From: a virus
IMG/VR virus record: IMGVR_UViG_3300035698_026448
Span: 1 to 57,404 of that record
DNA length: 57,404 bases
Direction: 5' to 3' (one strand)
Each line of letters opens with the position of its first letter. The first letter of the stretch is position 1. Position numbers and translations under genes: made by a program. Below the pieces are notes generated by a model. That model made no database searches. It was not told the origin of the DNA and was given only the letters and a program-made list of their open reading frames with translations. Of this stretch, positions 39,688 to 49,009 are shown one piece after another.

Positions 39688-39715
39688 TTGACTCTTTGAG
39701 CATTTGGCGTATAAT
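39688..39715 (+). promoter_or_regulatory. Promoter of the RNA cluster
   Basis: TTGACT (39688-39693), 16-nt spacer, TATAAT (39710-39715) preceded by G. Predicted +1 at about 39721-39722, which is exactly where the first Y RNA-like closing stem begins. Confidence 0.8.
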
Positions 39716-39720
39716 AACCC

Positions 39721-39877
39721 GCAGACGCAACCTGAAAGACTTGGCATACAAACTTGAGGGTTTACTGCCGGGGCCAATAGCGCCCCGGCCACATAGTTGG
39801 AATCCGGCAACCGTGGAGGTTGTCGGAGGAAGATTATGGGATTGCCAATCGAACTTTTGCGAATGCAACTTTTTTTG
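39721..39877 (+). ncRNA. Y RNA-like RNA 1
   Basis: Closing stem GCA-GA-CGCAA (39721-39730) with TTGCG-AA-TGC (39857-39866). Internal loop: 5' CCTGAAA, 3' GAACTT. Second stem GACTTGGCA / TGCCAATC. Then ATACAAAC, as in the other copies. The distal module is not tRNA-like: it has GCCGGGGC/GCCCCGGC and CCGGCAACC/GGTTGTCGG hairpins. A T-tract (39870-39877) follows. Would bind the TROVE protein at 44023 if the internal loop is the Ro60 site. Inferred from shared structure with the other three copies. Confidence 0.6.
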
Positions 39878-40065
39878 CTCTCTTACAATTGAATATCGAT
39901 TGTCGCAAAAACTACGAAACAATGGATGGGCCTGGCTCTGTCAAAAGAAGTCCGGGGGCAACGGTTGCCGTAAGGCTCCCCCGTCCACCATATATGTAGT
40001 GGCTCGGTCAGGGAAACTTGAATCGGGGGCAACGGTAGGGTAACCTACCCCACTGCGCCATTTTT
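39878..40065 (+). other. Non-coding structured segment between Y-like RNAs 1 and 2
   Basis: No gene. Holds GGATGGG (39934-39940) pairing with CCCGTCC further on, a CGGGGG/CCCCCG hairpin, a repeated CGGGGGCAACGGT, and GGTAGG-gtaa-CCTACC. It ends near a CCA but lacks D and T arms, so I do not call a tRNA. Could be a further RNA or processed spacer. Confidence 0.35.
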
Positions 40066-40195
40066 GCTGCGACCTACGAGTTTGGCTTACAAACATTTAG
40101 CTCATTGCAGAGCGTCACTATTTGGAAGTGAAGGTTGCCGGGTCAAACCGGCAATGTTATCAGTCTTGCCAAGCAAACTTTCGCAGCTTTTTTTT
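40066..40195 (+). ncRNA. Y RNA-like RNA 2 with tRNA-like module
   Basis: Closing stem GCTGCGA (40066-40072) / TCGCAGC (40181-40187) followed by eight T, so the stem doubles as a terminator. 5' loop CCTAC(GA), 3' loop element CAAACTT. Then TTACAAACA and a tRNA-like cloverleaf: D-arm AGCTC-ATTGCA-GAGC, anticodon-like arm TCACT-ATTTGGA-AGTGA, T-arm TGCCGG-GTCAAA-CCGGCA, and an acceptor-like helix AACATT/AATGTT. This architecture matches bacterial YrlA RNAs. CAAACTT can also pair with GAGTTTG, so the internal loop may be dynamic. Confidence 0.7.
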
Positions 40196-40312
40196 GAGAT
40201 CAACGATCTTACTGTTGGCATCCATGCCTCGTAAGAGTTCGTGCCATCCGAGACCCGTTTTGATGGCAGTAAAAGACGGGGACTTACGAACAGTAAAGAT
40301 CGATCATGAATT
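40196..40312 (+). ncRNA. Candidate pseudoknotted RNA
   Basis: Outer stem CGATCTT-ACTGTT (from 40205) pairs with AACAGTAAAGATCG (to about 40302) with a single bulge. Inside are GGCAT/ATGCC, CGTAAG/CTTACG and TGCCATC/GATGGCA hairpins. CCCGT in the last loop can pair with ACGGG outside it, giving an H-type pseudoknot. No matching known family comes to mind. Confidence 0.5.
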
Positions 40313-40402
40313 GCGGTGGAGTGGAACGGAAATGGATCGAAAGATTCAAGACCATAATGGCCTCATAAGCCGTTGATATCGGGTTCGACTCCCGTCACCG
40401 CT
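40313..40402 (+). tRNA. tRNA-Met(CAU)-like with enlarged D-arm
   Basis: Acceptor GCGGTGG (40313-40319) pairs with TCACCGC (40395-40401). Anticodon arm ATGGC-CTCATAA-GCCGT shows anticodon CAU. T-arm CGGG-TTCGACT-CCCG. The D region is about 18 bases too long and contains a GGATC-GAAA-GATTC hairpin. CCA is not encoded. Six bases separate it from Y-like RNA 3, so they could be co-processed. Either a divergent real tRNA or a mimic. Confidence 0.5.
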
Positions 40403-40407
40403 ATTTC

Positions 40408-40559
40408 GGGCGACCTAACTGATGTGGCTTACAAACACTTAGCTCATTTGGTAGAGCATTGTCTTTTTATGACAACGGTAACAGGTTCAAATCCTGTATT
40501 GTTAACCAGGGCTCCGGCCCACCGGACTTCGGTCCACCAAGCCATCCAAACTTTCGCCC
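40408..40559 (+). ncRNA. Y RNA-like RNA 3 with tRNA(Lys)-like module
   Basis: Closing stem GGGCGA (40408-40413) / TCGCCC (40554-40559). 5' loop CCTAACT, 3' loop CAAACTT. Second stem GAT..GGCTT / AAGCCATC. Then TTACAAACAC and a tRNA-Lys-like fold: D-arm AGCTC-ATTTGGTA-GAGC, arm TTGTC-TTTTTAT-GACAA, T-arm ACAGG-TTCAAAT-CCTGT, acceptor-like AACACT/ATTGTT. The acceptor end is not free; it continues into the Y-like stem, so it should not be charged. Two extra hairpins (GGGC..GCCC; ACCGGACTTCGGT) lie before the 3' strand. Confidence 0.7.
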
Positions 40560-40749
40560 ACTATTACTTTCCGGCGCGCCCGGCGCGCCCGGTTACAGTA
40601 CTTCACCGAAGTCGGGGTAACCCATCCGAAGTGAAGCCCTTTCGAGAGGCGAACAGGTGAGATAAAGAACGGTTTCCAGTGTCCCCGCCTTTATCCCCTG
40701 CTGATGAGCCGCAAGGCCACTCTCGGAAGAAAATGCTGGACTTGTAGTT
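40560..40749 (+). other. Non-coding structured segment between Y-like RNAs 3 and 4
   Basis: No gene. Starts with a GC-rich direct repeat (CGGCGCGCC twice). Long-range stem TTTCGAGAG (40640-40648) / CTCTCGGAA (40720-40728) encloses CAGG..GATAAAG / CTTTATC..CCTG and a GCC-GCAA-GGC hairpin. TCCAG in the inner loop can pair with CTGGA downstream (pseudoknot). Also CTTCAC/GTGAAG. Looks like a folded RNA of unknown family. Confidence 0.4.
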
Positions 40750-40838
40750 AATGCTGCGGCCTGACGGAGAGACTTACAAACACTTTGTTACCATTAACAC
40801 GAAGAGTAGGAAATTGTCCCTCAAACTTCCGCAGCATT
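40750..40838 (+). ncRNA. Y RNA-like RNA 4, minimal form
   Basis: Perfect 10-bp closing stem AATGCTGCGG (40750-40759) / CCGCAGCATT (40829-40838). 5' loop CCTGACG, 3' loop AAACTT. Second stem GAGAGAC / GTCCCTC. Then TTACAAACAC and a simple hairpin TGTTA-ccat-TAACA in place of the tRNA-like domain. At 89 nt it resembles classical eukaryotic Y RNAs in size. An intrinsic terminator follows. Confidence 0.7.
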
Positions 40839-40840
40839 TA

Positions 40841-40873
40841 GCCCGCTGGTCTAACGACTGGCGGGCTTTTTTT
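40841..40873 (+). terminator. Intrinsic terminator of the RNA cluster
   Basis: GCCCGCTGGTC-taac-GACTGGCGGGC forms an 11-bp stem with G-T pairs, followed by seven T. A GTATAAT box starts 3 bases later. Confidence 0.9.
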
Positions 40874-43971: not shown

Positions 43972-44022
43972 CTACCTGAATCACCAAGGGTTTTGGTGAG
44001 TTTTGGCTTGGAGGCTATGAAT

Positions 44023-45813
44023 ATGTCTACTGAAAACGCAACTCCAGTTCACGAGGAAATGTTCCAGACTTTGCTGCGTACTCCGCACCGCAAGGTGGAT
44101 GAAGTGCTTTCGCTTCACCAAGAGCAGTTTGAACGCGACCCGAATTTCTACGGTAAGGCAGCAGTCTATGCCGTACTGGGTGGCAACTGCGCGGTACGTG
44201 ACATCAACGAGGTCTTCATTGCTGTCCTGTTGGCTTCCTCGTACAAGGAACATCAGGAAGCTGGATACGTTATGTTCCAGTCGTTGCCACCATATCAGGC
44301 GGCACGAGTGGCACGTTACTTCACGGGCTATGACGAAGTAGTTAAGGTCCACTCCTATGAAACCAAGCCGACAGATGGCTTCGGGGTTACTTGGGAGAAG
44401 TCCCGGTTCAGCAAGAATCACGCTGACAAAGCAAAGCGTGGCAAGGTTAAGCCACCTCGCACAATTGCGGTAGGCAAGGGCAGTACGCTGCGCGCCGACC
44501 TTTTGAAGAAGAAGAAAATCACCGCTGCAACCAAAGAGATTACGGTTGAAGAGTGGGTGGCGCATCACAAGTGCTTAAACAAGCGCAACTTCAAGGGAGC
44601 GCTGCGCTCTGCGGCTCGCTCGTACCTGCGCTTCCGTGAGCAGAACCCACGGTTGCTGGAAGGTGCGTTGATTCGTGGTCACAAGTACCTCAAGCAGTTT
44701 TACATTCGGACCCACATGGTTCCGATGGGTGACGAAACTAGCTGGGTCAACCAGTTTCTCTGGAAGGGTGAAGTGCCTGCCGACTGTGAGGCGGCTAAGC
44801 GCCTGTCTGCATTGAAGTCATTGCAGCAAGAAAATGACCCAACCAAGCAGGCCGAGATTATTGTAGAGGCTCGGTTGCCATATACTTCTGTTACTTCCGT
44901 CTTGAAGAACATCACGCCTAGCGTGTTGGTGGCGATCATTAACTCTATGTCACCACAAGAGTTGATGCAGTCTCTTGGTGGATTGAAGCGTCGGGGAGCG
45001 TTCGGCAACCCTGACATCAAGAAGCTGATTGACTCGAAGTTGCAGAAGGCAAAGACTACGGGCAAGGCTCGTATTGATGCGTTGAAGGGCGCTAAGGCTG
45101 CTAAGTCTGTAGAGGGTCTGGATGCAGAGACGGCAAAGATCGTTTCTGAGGTTACTGACTCTCAGCTTAAGCACCACGGTGAAGTTTCACTCAAGACTGC
45201 TCTCCTGATTGATAAGTCTGGCTCTATGCAAGACGCAATTGAGTTGGGCAAGCAGTTGGCGGCATCTATCGCACAGGCATGCAAAGAGGTTAATCCTCCG
45301 CTGGTATACTTGTTCGACAATATGCCCACGTTGATTGAGTGGAAAGACTCTGATGGCGATATTACTGCCAAGTCAGCTTGGGACAAGAAGTTGGAAATGT
45401 TCAAGGCTGGTGGCGGTACGACTCCATCGACTGTGCTTCGTGCGCTCGCCTCCAAAGGTACTGTTGTAGACCAATTCGTATTGGTCACCGATGAGGGTGA
45501 ATTGCAAGAAGGTGCATTTGCGACTCAACTGAAAGATTACGAAGCCAAGATCGGACAGCAAGTGAATGTTGTTATTGTCCGTATTGGTCGTCATCGCAGT
45601 GATCGCATGGAACGATCCTTGAAAGCCAAGCATGTGGAGACTCAGGTCATGCCATGTGACAGCATTGACTCAGTTTCGATCCCGAACCTGATTAACTTGC
45701 TGTCTCAAAAGAGCATCTTTGACCTTGTGCTTGACATTTTGGCTTTGGACCTTCCAAGTCGTGCTGAGTGGGATGAGAAGAATTTGAAAAACAAAGAGGC
45801 GGTTGCCGCCTGA
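44023..45813 (+). CDS. TROVE/Ro60-like RNA-binding protein with vWA domain
   Basis: 596 residues from ATG 44023, 9 bases after TTGGAGG (ATG 44017 is too close). The N-terminal two thirds is all helical with VEARLPYTSVTSVLKNIT and LMQSLGGLKRRGAFGNPDIK, as in the HEAT-repeat ring of Ro60/Rsr. The C-terminus is a von Willebrand A domain with an intact MIDAS: TALLIDKSGSM (D397, S399, S401), GGGTTPSTV and LVTDEGEL. Ro60 proteins bind Y RNAs on the ring's outer face and misfolded or single-stranded RNA in its cavity. Four Y RNA-like genes lie 3 kb upstream. Strong promoter and GC-richer codons than the neighbours suggest high expression. Confidence 0.85.
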   Translation: MSTENATPVHEEMFQTLLRTPHRKVDEVLSLHQEQFERDPNFYGKAAVYAVLGGNCAVRDINEVFIAVLLASSYKEHQEAGYVMFQSLPPYQAARVARYFTGYDEVVKVHSYETKPTDGFGVTWEKSRFSKNHADKAKRGKVKPPRTIAVGKGSTLRADLLKKKKITAATKEITVEEWVAHHKCLNKRNFKGALRSAARSYLRFREQNPRLLEGALIRGHKYLKQFYIRTHMVPMGDETSWVNQFLWKGEVPADCEAAKRLSALKSLQQENDPTKQAEIIVEARLPYTSVTSVLKNITPSVLVAIINSMSPQELMQSLGGLKRRGAFGNPDIKKLIDSKLQKAKTTGKARIDALKGAKAAKSVEGLDAETAKIVSEVTDSQLKHHGEVSLKTALLIDKSGSMQDAIELGKQLAASIAQACKEVNPPLVYLFDNMPTLIEWKDSDGDITAKSAWDKKLEMFKAGGGTTPSTVLRALASKGTVVDQFVLVTDEGELQEGAFATQLKDYEAKIGQQVNVVIVRIGRHRSDRMERSLKAKHVETQVMPCDSIDSVSIPNLINLLSQKSIFDLVLDILALDLPSRAEWDEKNLKNKEAVAA

Positions 45814-47160: not shown

Positions 47161-47839
47161 GAGTTTTTACCGACTGGATGAAGCAGCAGAGCGACTTGGC
47201 ATGAGTGAACTTGATGTTAAGATACTCATTCGTGATGGAAGGTTGCGCGAATTCCGTGATGGTGGTCGTATTACTCTCAAGTATAACGAAGTTGAAGCGT
47301 TGGTTCCTAAGCGTGGCTTCTCGTATGAGGCAATGAACCAAACAGGTGGAGAGGTTAAGGACGAGATTCGAGCCGCATCAGCAGAAGAAGCTTTAGCGCA
47401 AATACGAAATCTTGGGTTATTTCCTACTCGTATTAGGGAAATAAAAGTCAAGGATCGCAAGAAACAGCTAACCGCATCTGGCTCAGTTGCGATCTTTGAT
47501 ACTGATTCTGAGCCTGAATGCGTTGTCAGTCGAGAAAAGCATCGCATCGTAAAGAAGGGGTTGGTTGTTAACAAGGAAGATAAGTCGCTGACTTATTGTT
47601 CTGATTGCGATGACGACGGTGGTGCTGGAGTTCTCATTGATATTGCAGTCGATGATAAAGATAAGGTAAACCCTATTAAGATGGTGGTCGTCTGTCACCC
47701 TCAATTGAGTTTGCTTTCTCGCATCAAGGATGCTATACTTACTGTACTGCGTTACGATACGGTTTACAATGTCAACGTGAGTGCAGAAACAGTTGTAGCT
47801 ATCCAAGAGGAGATCAAAGATGCTGGACAAAGTGATTGA
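47150..47839 (+). CDS. HTH protein with T2SSF-N-like segment
   Basis: 229 residues. Residues 3-50 form an excisionase-type helix-turn-helix (FYRLDEAAERLGMSELDVKI, then LREFRDGG). Residues ~62-100 (GEVKDEIRAASAEEALAQIR, GLFPTRIREI) resemble the N-terminal repeat of type II secretion F/PilC proteins, a pairing I associate with Planctomycetes. The rest has LTYCSDCDDDGG, a possible metal site. It overlaps both neighbours, so it is translated with the JAMM and E1 genes. Role unknown. Confidence 0.55.
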   Translation: MMSRSFYRLDEAAERLGMSELDVKILIRDGRLREFRDGGRITLKYNEVEALVPKRGFSYEAMNQTGGEVKDEIRAASAEEALAQIRNLGLFPTRIREIKVKDRKKQLTASGSVAIFDTDSEPECVVSREKHRIVKKGLVVNKEDKSLTYCSDCDDDGGAGVLIDIAVDDKDKVNPIKMVVVCHPQLSLLSRIKDAILTVLRYDTVYNVNVSAETVVAIQEEIKDAGQSD

Positions 47840-48350
47840 AGTTGAACCTCTGATTGATGAGTTTCATAGCTCAGATAATTTCCGCGAGCAGATCGCCGTG
47901 TTGTGGCCCGGTGCTTTGCGGGATGGGGTTATGTTGGCCCACAAGACTCTTGGTGCTGTATGTCAGGCAGGGTTAGCTAGCTTTGATGGTGAAAATCCCG
48001 GTGAAGGCACTTGGGAGAGTTGGCAGAATGCAGATGCCTATATTGAAGCGGGCGCACTGGGTTTCTATCATACCCATCCCGAGGGATGTGACTGGTTTAG
48101 TACGCAGGATTTTAGTTTCATTGAGGGGTTAGCTCAGGCAAATGGACGGAAGTATATCTGGCACTTGATGCAGCCATATGGTAGAAACCATATCCATTGT
48201 CTTTGTGCTCACATGATGCCCCGTGGTCATGTGGTTGTATATCAACTGGGCAAAATTGCGGCTGACCCAATGGATACTATCCTGTCGTTGCCGATGCCGC
48301 CGAATCGGCAAGAGCATTCGTCCACTATGTCTGTTGTACACTTGGAGTAA
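47820..48350 (+). CDS. JAMM/MPN+ (Prok-JAB) metallopeptidase
   Basis: 176 residues. The zinc motif is complete: GFYHTHPEGCDWFSTQD, i.e. HxHPx6Sx2D with H84, H86, S94 and D97; E23 may be the upstream catalytic Glu. JAMM domains remove ubiquitin-like proteins or process their C-termini. It sits 5 bases before an E1-like gene, the classic arrangement of prokaryotic ubiquitin-like systems. It is not obviously a tail-assembly K protein because no NlpC domain is fused. Confidence 0.85.
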   Translation: MLDKVIEVEPLIDEFHSSDNFREQIAVLWPGALRDGVMLAHKTLGAVCQAGLASFDGENPGEGTWESWQNADAYIEAGALGFYHTHPEGCDWFSTQDFSFIEGLAQANGRKYIWHLMQPYGRNHIHCLCAHMMPRGHVVVYQLGKIAADPMDTILSLPMPPNRQEHSSTMSVVHLE

Positions 48351-48355
48351 GAGCA

Positions 48356-49009
48356 ATGTCTGACCACCTCGCACATGAAGCGGCTTATCGCGGCAATATG
48401 AATGTATTGCAGCAGCGGGCATCCAAAAGGTTGGTTGTTATGGGTGCAGGCGCACTCGGTTCGTTCGTGACCGACCTGTTGGCTCGCCAAGGTTACGAAG
48501 GGTTGACTGTTGTAGATCGTGATAAGGTAGAACGTGCCAACTTCGGTACGCAGAACTATGGCAAGTCTGATATAGGACGTGCCAAGGCTCTCCAGTGCGC
48601 GCAAGGAATTATGAAGCGCATTGGAACCAAGGTGCAGCCAATCGCAAAGGAAATTAAGGCAGAGAACGTGCGTCCGATCATCAAGGACGTTGATCTTGTC
48701 ATTGACTTGTTTGACAACCCATCCAGTCGCCGGGTTCTTAAGGTTGCTTGCGAGAAGTTGGGTATTCCTTGCGTTCACGCAGGCATGGGTGGCATTGGGT
48801 ATTTTGAAGTAATTTGGAACGAAAACTATCGCATCCCTGATACGGATGCAGAGGATGGATTGGATGCGCCTTGCGATTACCCACTGGCATCCAATCTGGT
48901 TATGCTGTGCGTGGGTGCGATTGCAGAAGTAGTCAACCGTTTTGTTGATGAAGACGAGAAGATTGAAGTTGACTTCTGGCTTAACAAGGTTAAAATGGGA
49001 GTGATGTAA
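48356..49009 (+). CDS. E1/ThiF-family adenylating enzyme
   Basis: 217 residues. MGAGALGSFVTDLLARQGY is the ATP-binding loop, VVDRDKVERANFGTQNYG holds the conserved Asp54, Asn62 and Gln66 region, and VIDLFDNPSSRRVL with Asp120 follows. C173 in APCDYP is a candidate thioester cysteine. Adenylates the C-terminus of a ubiquitin-like or sulfur-carrier protein. Minimal length, with no C-terminal rhodanese. Partner JAMM gene is just upstream. The stop overlaps the next ATG. Confidence 0.85.
   Translation: MSDHLAHEAAYRGNMNVLQQRASKRLVVMGAGALGSFVTDLLARQGYEGLTVVDRDKVERANFGTQNYGKSDIGRAKALQCAQGIMKRIGTKVQPIAKEIKAENVRPIIKDVDLVIDLFDNPSSRRVLKVACEKLGIPCVHAGMGGIGYFEVIWNENYRIPDTDAEDGLDAPCDYPLASNLVMLCVGAIAEVVNRFVDEDEKIEVDFWLNKVKMGVM

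Follow-up and report, generated by a model that had tools for sequence, protein, structure and literature searches.

Y RNAs are already known to join one Ro60 handle to an exchangeable module. In YrlA (bacterial Y RNA-like A), as Wang et al. are said to have described in 2018, the Y stem replaces the anticodon arm and a free CCA end is absent; PDB 6CU1 is the YrlA of Salmonella. The ACUU motif is known from animal Y RNAs. Our comparison with YrlA (Rfam RF02553) was based on Rfam and on a review in which the YrlA domain is described as resembling the D, T, and acceptor arms of tRNA, and the Y RNA of Deinococcus radiodurans as tethering Rsr to PNPase (PMC8394870). YrlA is also a substrate of tRNA-modifying enzymes (PMC8394870, PMC7790460). 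Among phages, Listeria phage CKA15 has been proposed to encode an Rsr along with putative Y RNAs (PMC12282133), and ROT/TROVE proteins have been reported from jumbo phages (PMC7824862). Huge phages that carry both Ro60 and Y RNAs provide a setting for the long-standing question of what Y RNAs that mimic tRNA recruit.

We analyzed IMG/VR virus record IMGVR_UViG_3300035698_026448, a phage genome fragment whose whole 57,404 bases are referred to here as the window. An array at 39688-40867 contains four Y RNAs (Y1 to Y4) between a promoter-like site and a terminator-like hairpin, as well as two short elements with CCA ends, one gene resembling tRNA-Met, and two structured stretches. The Ro60 gene begins 3.1 kb downstream of the array (Table 1). 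Consensus scans for promoters and terminators found numbers of sites that were not above shuffled expectation. Judging from the sequence, Y2 and Y3 are probably Ro60-type Y RNAs with tRNA modules grafted on by the acceptor end. They resemble YrlA in having a Y stem and a tRNA-like module beside a Ro60/Rsr gene, but differ from it in that they keep the anticodon arm and the normal tRNA order, with the acceptor end as the junction. The D. radiodurans Rsr-Y RNA-PNPase complex (RYPER) is similar in that a Ro60-family protein and a Y RNA are encoded together; it differs in having PNPase as its partner, and the modules of Y2 and Y3 are tRNA-like. The described phage systems (CKA15, mycobacteriophages, phiLo 9l5y, and the jumbo phage ROT/TROVE proteins) likewise combine a phage Ro60-family protein with nearby non-coding RNAs. 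Because Y RNAs that mimic tRNA have been described before, as have Ro60 proteins of phages, these are not a new kind of RNA. In the papers compared, where YrlA was represented by PMC8394870 and PMC7790460, we found neither an array whose tRNA modules are grafted on by the acceptor end nor tRNAs that contain a permuted Y stem.

Table 1. Positions of the features of the Y RNA array and of the Ro60 gene in the window.
Feature	Position	Strand	Basis
Sigma-70-type promoter before the array, strong-looking, TTGACT-16-TATAAT	39688-39715	+	Consensus match, 11/12 letters
Y RNA 1 (Y1): Y stem CGCAA/TTGCG, TTGGCA/TGCCAA, TACAAAC; 96-nt module	39726-39861	+	Parser and fold
tRNA-like element 1: GGATGGG/CCCGTCC stem, ACCA 3' end	39924-39990	+	Sequence reading and fold
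tRNA-like element 2: GTAGTGG/CCACTGC stem, GCCA 3' end	39996-40060	+	Sequence reading and fold
Y RNA 2 (Y2): Y stem and unpermuted tRNA-like module, fused via the acceptor end	40066-40187	+	Rfam, parser, fold, alignment
tRNA-like module of Y2 (AACATT...AATGTT), anticodon UUG	40092-40158	+	Rfam tRNA, 44.7 bits
tRNA-Met(CAU)-like gene, enlarged D-arm region with GGATC-GAAA-GATTC hairpin	40313-40402	+	ARAGORN 40325-40403; tRNA-Sec model, 21 bits
Y RNA 3 (Y3): Y stem, unpermuted tRNA-like module, UUCG hairpin	40408-40559	+	ARAGORN, Rfam, parser
tRNA-like module of Y3 (AACACT...ATTGTT, pair 5 broken), anticodon UUU	40434-40503	+	Rfam tRNA, 53.9 bits
Y RNA 4 (Y4): AATGCTGCGG/CCGCAGCATT stem, short module	40750-40838	+	Parser
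Intrinsic-terminator-like hairpin and T run at the array end	40840-40867	+	Consensus match only
Divergent Ro60/Rsr protein: helical domain and vWA domain with DKSGSM	43993-45813	+	Profile, AlphaFold, Foldseek, PHROG

The product of the Ro60 gene (43993-45813) gave a profile match to human RO60 (9nen; E 9.5e-7) and matched PHROG 850, RNA-binding protein. No Pfam family was found at a threshold of 0.001, and the sequence match is weak by itself. The best Foldseek matches of its AlphaFold model (mean pLDDT 73) were Ro60 (E 3.7e-11), D. radiodurans Rsr, and the Ro60 of Thermus phage phiLo (9l5y). Helical ring and vWA domains were found in the model; at this pLDDT, and with TM-scores of about 0.4-0.6, the predicted likeness is a match of fold and not of detail.

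Searches with Ro60 identified relatives in the huge phage LR756511 (L006), in further virus records, and in 33 bacterial loci, mostly Planctomycetota. A single-sequence query found no viral relative, whereas alignment queries did. The Y core consists of a lower stem, a CC.A/ACUU internal loop, an upper stem, and UACAAAC. A parser that demanded a lower stem, the ACU loop, an upper stem, and the UACA motif returned 106 matches in 1.52 Mb compared to 0 in reversed or complemented controls. After removal of duplicates and weak cases, the core was present at 95 places in the fetched loci, every one (95/95) on the Ro60 strand and 90 of them upstream of the Ro60 gene. The 3' internal loop was ACU(U/C) throughout, and was AACTT or GACTT in 68/95. 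The pairing of the Y stem is no independent test since stems were required by the parser; the strand, the position, and the zero in the controls are independent. Both the RNA family and its genomic association with Ro60 were computed directly. Between 4 and 14 Y RNAs were parsed in huge phages with Ro60. When viral contigs were scanned for the Y core of the window, four matches were obtained, three of them apparently coding and the fourth (L005) showing a 5' half only; none was kept.

The preliminary description of this stretch had placed two tRNA-like modules within Y-type stems, and both were present at those places to within a few bases. The cloverleaf of each was recognized by the Rfam tRNA model above its gathering score of 29, at 40433-40505 for Y3 (53.9 bits) and at 40091-40160 for Y2 (44.7 bits, E 6e-8), the latter when a short stretch was searched. 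The closing Y stem is GCTGCGA/TCGCAGC plus TTTGGC/GCCAAG in Y2 and GGGCGA/TCGCCC plus GGCTT/AAGCC in Y3; Y stems close the modules of homologues as well. The anticodon-like loops, too, were those described, ATTTGGA in a TCACT/AGTGA stem (Y2) and TTTTTAT in a TTGTC/GACAA stem (Y3). The two RNAs are 63% identical, and the order of the arms in both modules is D, anticodon, and T, which is the normal tRNA order. The Y2 module has a D-loop without GG and a T-loop of 6 nt; the loss of the GG and of one T-loop base may prevent formation of the tRNA elbow. The best score of the Rfam YrlA model on Y2 and Y3 was 17.4 bits over 40357-40487, under the gathering score of 69 bits, and the permuted order of YrlA (an anticodon-side junction and a loop-closed acceptor arm) was lacking in Y2 and Y3 but was found in the relatives of class ii below. 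With two tested YrlA features absent, the predicted graft, joined at the acceptor end and retaining its anticodon arm, is different from YrlA.

The modules could also be ordinary translation tRNA genes, a tRNA-Lys and one more, that chance to lie near Y-like stems. ARAGORN did call a tRNA-Lys at 40433-40508, and the Rfam score of the Y3 module is in keeping with such a gene. However, the 5' acceptor strand is the Y motif TACAAAC, and neither module has its own paired acceptor stem with a free 3' end for CCA. The acceptor strands instead run on into the Y stem with 1-2 non-standard pairs in the Rfam alignment (two in Y3), and the enclosing Y stems recur in homologues. We consider this explanation very improbable. 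The derivation of Y3 from a tRNA-Lys, which had been suggested earlier, has the UUU anticodon and the ARAGORN call as its sole basis, and we did not adopt it.

The acceptor-like helix had been said to contain a compensatory change, from AACATT/AATGTT in Y2 to AACACT/ATTGTT in Y3. The change is in fact U-A to C·U at pair 5, by which a pair is lost: the helix has six pairs in Y2 and five in Y3, where C lies opposite T, and the Rfam alignment also marks this pair as non-standard. We aligned five homologues, namely Y2, Y3, two modules from LR756511, and one from L008. Pair 5 was U-A twice, A-U once, and broken twice (Y3 and L006_8422), and pair 6 was U-A four times and G-C once. True double changes in this helix were confined to homologues other than Y2 and Y3, with pair 5 changing from U-A to A-U in L008, pair 6 from U-A to G-C in L006_8422, and the helix reading AACAAAAGA/TCTTTTGTT in L007. 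Pairs 1-4 were the same in all homologues, as they overlap TACAAAC, an invariant Y motif. In nearly every member this motif comes after the upper Y stem, and the AAC strand is its end. GUU was present within the last 14 nt of 40/79 modules, short non-tRNA ones included (shuffled mean 12.3, maximum 23), and AAC/GUU is also seen in Y RNAs that have no tRNA module. We read the outer AAC/GUU pairs as belonging to the Y stem and only the innermost two pairs as a module-specific tRNA acceptor. RNAalifold predicted the D, anticodon, and T arms from the five homologues, and the acceptor-like helix was absent from its prediction.

The wider claim, that structure and not sequence is selected, was borne out in part. 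The fold is kept in homologues with many double changes, but the acceptor-like helix of Y2 and Y3 shows a break; likewise, the arms pair with double changes in the alignment, but pair 5 is broken without compensation in Y3 and L006_8422. Conservation of the fold was computed directly. Across the five homologues, 98% of cells paired and both-sided changes occurred at 11/20 pairs, mostly in the anticodon and T arms. None of 500 shuffles was as high as the observed pairing and double changes, and sliding the partners abolished the signal. All cells of the anticodon stem were paired (100%), and each of its five pairs had a double change; the T stem had double changes at 3/5 pairs and the D stem at 1/4. 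As judged from this alignment, the tRNA fold is conserved, though the base change originally cited is no evidence for it.

Y2 has an orthologue in LR756511, L006_11080, which lies beside that phage's own Ro60 and is 79% identical (blastn E 2e-5). The pair differ by C-G to U-A in the T stem and C-G to U-G in the anticodon stem, with 0/20 pairs broken, and the anticodon loop changes from ATTTGGA to CTCGAAA, with 5/7 letters replaced and anticodon UUG in one compared to CGA in the other. The CTCGAAA loop was read by hand, since the scripted reading chose a false stem there. This orthologous pair is the cleanest evidence for a kept fold. Y2 and Y3, on the other hand, may descend from different tRNAs; differences between their anticodon stems can therefore be inherited, and do not show directly, as had been supposed, that the Y RNA is under selection. 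The same caution applies to any modules of different tRNA descent, which carry inherited covariation. Such covariation would be expected if the modules were remnants, that is, captured tRNA fragments decaying inside Y RNAs and keeping their fold only through recent capture, and so would the loss of D-loop and T-loop elements in Y2 and the broken acceptor pair in Y3. However, the double change in the T stem and the absence of broken pairs between Y2 and L006_11080, despite the replacement of 5/7 loop letters, argue against decay, and we regard it as improbable.

Class i of the modules comprises short hairpins. Class ii is a permuted tRNA, in which a T arm and 3' acceptor strand are followed by a linker and then by the 5' acceptor strand and D arm. 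At least 6/7 acceptor pairs formed in 34/34 of these, a result that is supportive and not decisive, as shuffled linkers were nearly as good for some. Two class ii relatives in L012 matched Rfam YrlA (E 2.7e-6 and 2.1e-5), and class ii is therefore the YrlA arrangement. Class iii is an unpermuted tRNA attached by its acceptor end, and was present in virus records (Y2, Y3, L006 11080 and 8422, L007 8440, L008 8671, and L048 6892) and in bacteria (L012 8815 and L009 9460). These nine modules were checked by hand because regex class labels misfile some modules, and 9/9 had a 5-bp anticodon stem, a 7-nt loop, U33, and purine 37, with anticodons of many isotypes. In class iv, a permuted Y stem (3' strand, loop, 5' strand) is inserted between the D loop and the anticodon arm of a tRNA of normal order. 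Eleven cases were found, in virus records only (L006, with L006 9192 as one example, L007, L008, and L044); ten had at least 6/7 acceptor pairs, and most had perfect 7-bp stems. RNAs of class iv could in principle be processed as tRNAs. Classes ii and iv look like one joined structure cut at different places, and the tRNA-Met(CAU)-like gene at 40313-40402 may be a reduced form of the tRNAs with permuted Y stems found in related phages.

Two Y modules started with a strand like H69-H71 of 23S rRNA: L012 9319-9500 (+) with ATGACGGTCCTAAGGTAGC (23S 1916-1934, 18/19) and L006 10530-10190 (-) with ACGGTCATAAGGTAGCGA (23S 1919-1936, 17/18). The strands are in the same register after TACAAAC and were the best two rRNA matches among all Y regions. 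A search for this pattern 3' of TACAAAC in 22 records and 397 genomes of one class found only the two known cases (none in the 396 others), and none was found in viral contigs.

The locus and its relatives thus attach tRNA modules in at least three different ways, and a comparison of these modes of attachment can address which tRNA surface is important. We tentatively propose, as a possibility somewhat short of probable, that the Y stem serves phages and planctomycetes as a general platform for grafting, with one Ro60 handle placed on parts of the translation apparatus in all topological orders (acceptor-end tRNA, permuted tRNA, tRNA with an inserted permuted Y stem, and 23S H69-H71 strand). 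A single genome would then display a set of baits or adaptors of many isotypes, and some of these, because of their tRNA ends, could undergo RNase P processing and charging.

Y2 and Y3 have a stem that pairs the ends and holds the conserved internal loop, and they are encoded with a Ro60-family gene. Binding to Ro60 is inferred, as are a partner and a function as tether or decoy. The putative Ro60-binding handle would be the Y stem and its CC.A/ACUU internal loop, a reading based on the association with the Ro60 gene and on the ACUU motif. The tRNA body, fused by its acceptor end atop this stem, would point its D, anticodon, and T arms outward. The tRNA-shaped module could then bring Ro60 to a protein that recognizes tRNA shape, as a tether comparable to that for D. 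radiodurans PNPase, or could occupy such a protein. A Ro60 tether presenting a tRNA shape is the most economical reading, although we give the tether mechanism alone slightly less than an even chance. The main rival to it is a decoy role, in which the modules act as tRNA-shaped baits that soak up anticodon nucleases of the host or other defenses that cleave tRNA, and Ro60 holds or recycles the bait. The intact anticodon arms of all nine acceptor-grafted modules, with their varied anticodons, would suit a bait, as would the many tRNAs of huge phages (14-60 matches in 5/6 records searched), and a competitive-inhibitor role has been proposed for the YrlA tRNA-like domain (PMC7790460). However, the anticodon differs between Y2 and its orthologue, which makes a fixed tRNA or nuclease target less likely, and beside the array we identified neither a nuclease gene nor one for RNA repair. 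We consider decoys rather unlikely.

Several further observations were made in the window and its relatives. A small conserved ORF lies between Y RNAs or upstream of Ro60 in L006, L007, L008, and L012 (HIRYDGRSIDIPLS...VFG in L008). Downstream of Ro60 in the window, at 47820-49009, a JAB-like metalloprotease candidate (weak Pfam match) adjoins a ThiF/E1-like protein (PF00899, E 7e-29). The small ORF and the JAB-like and E1-like genes hint at a possible ubiquitin-like link. Within the array, tRNA-like elements 1 and 2 share GGGGGCAACGG, and both have 7-bp acceptor-like stems and encoded NCCA ends. Neither was called by ARAGORN or Rfam, and a search of the fetched loci for homologues carrying GGGGGCAACGG gave none except two chance GC-rich matches. 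Between Y3 and Y4, the stretch 40560-40752 is strongly folded (-63.5 kcal/mol) and has GGCGCGCC repeats; a likeness of 40640-40660 (GAGGCGAACAGGTGAGATAA) to 16S rRNA was rejected because the matches were at chance level only. The start of the record (1-351) gave a partial tmRNA match of 59.7 bits.
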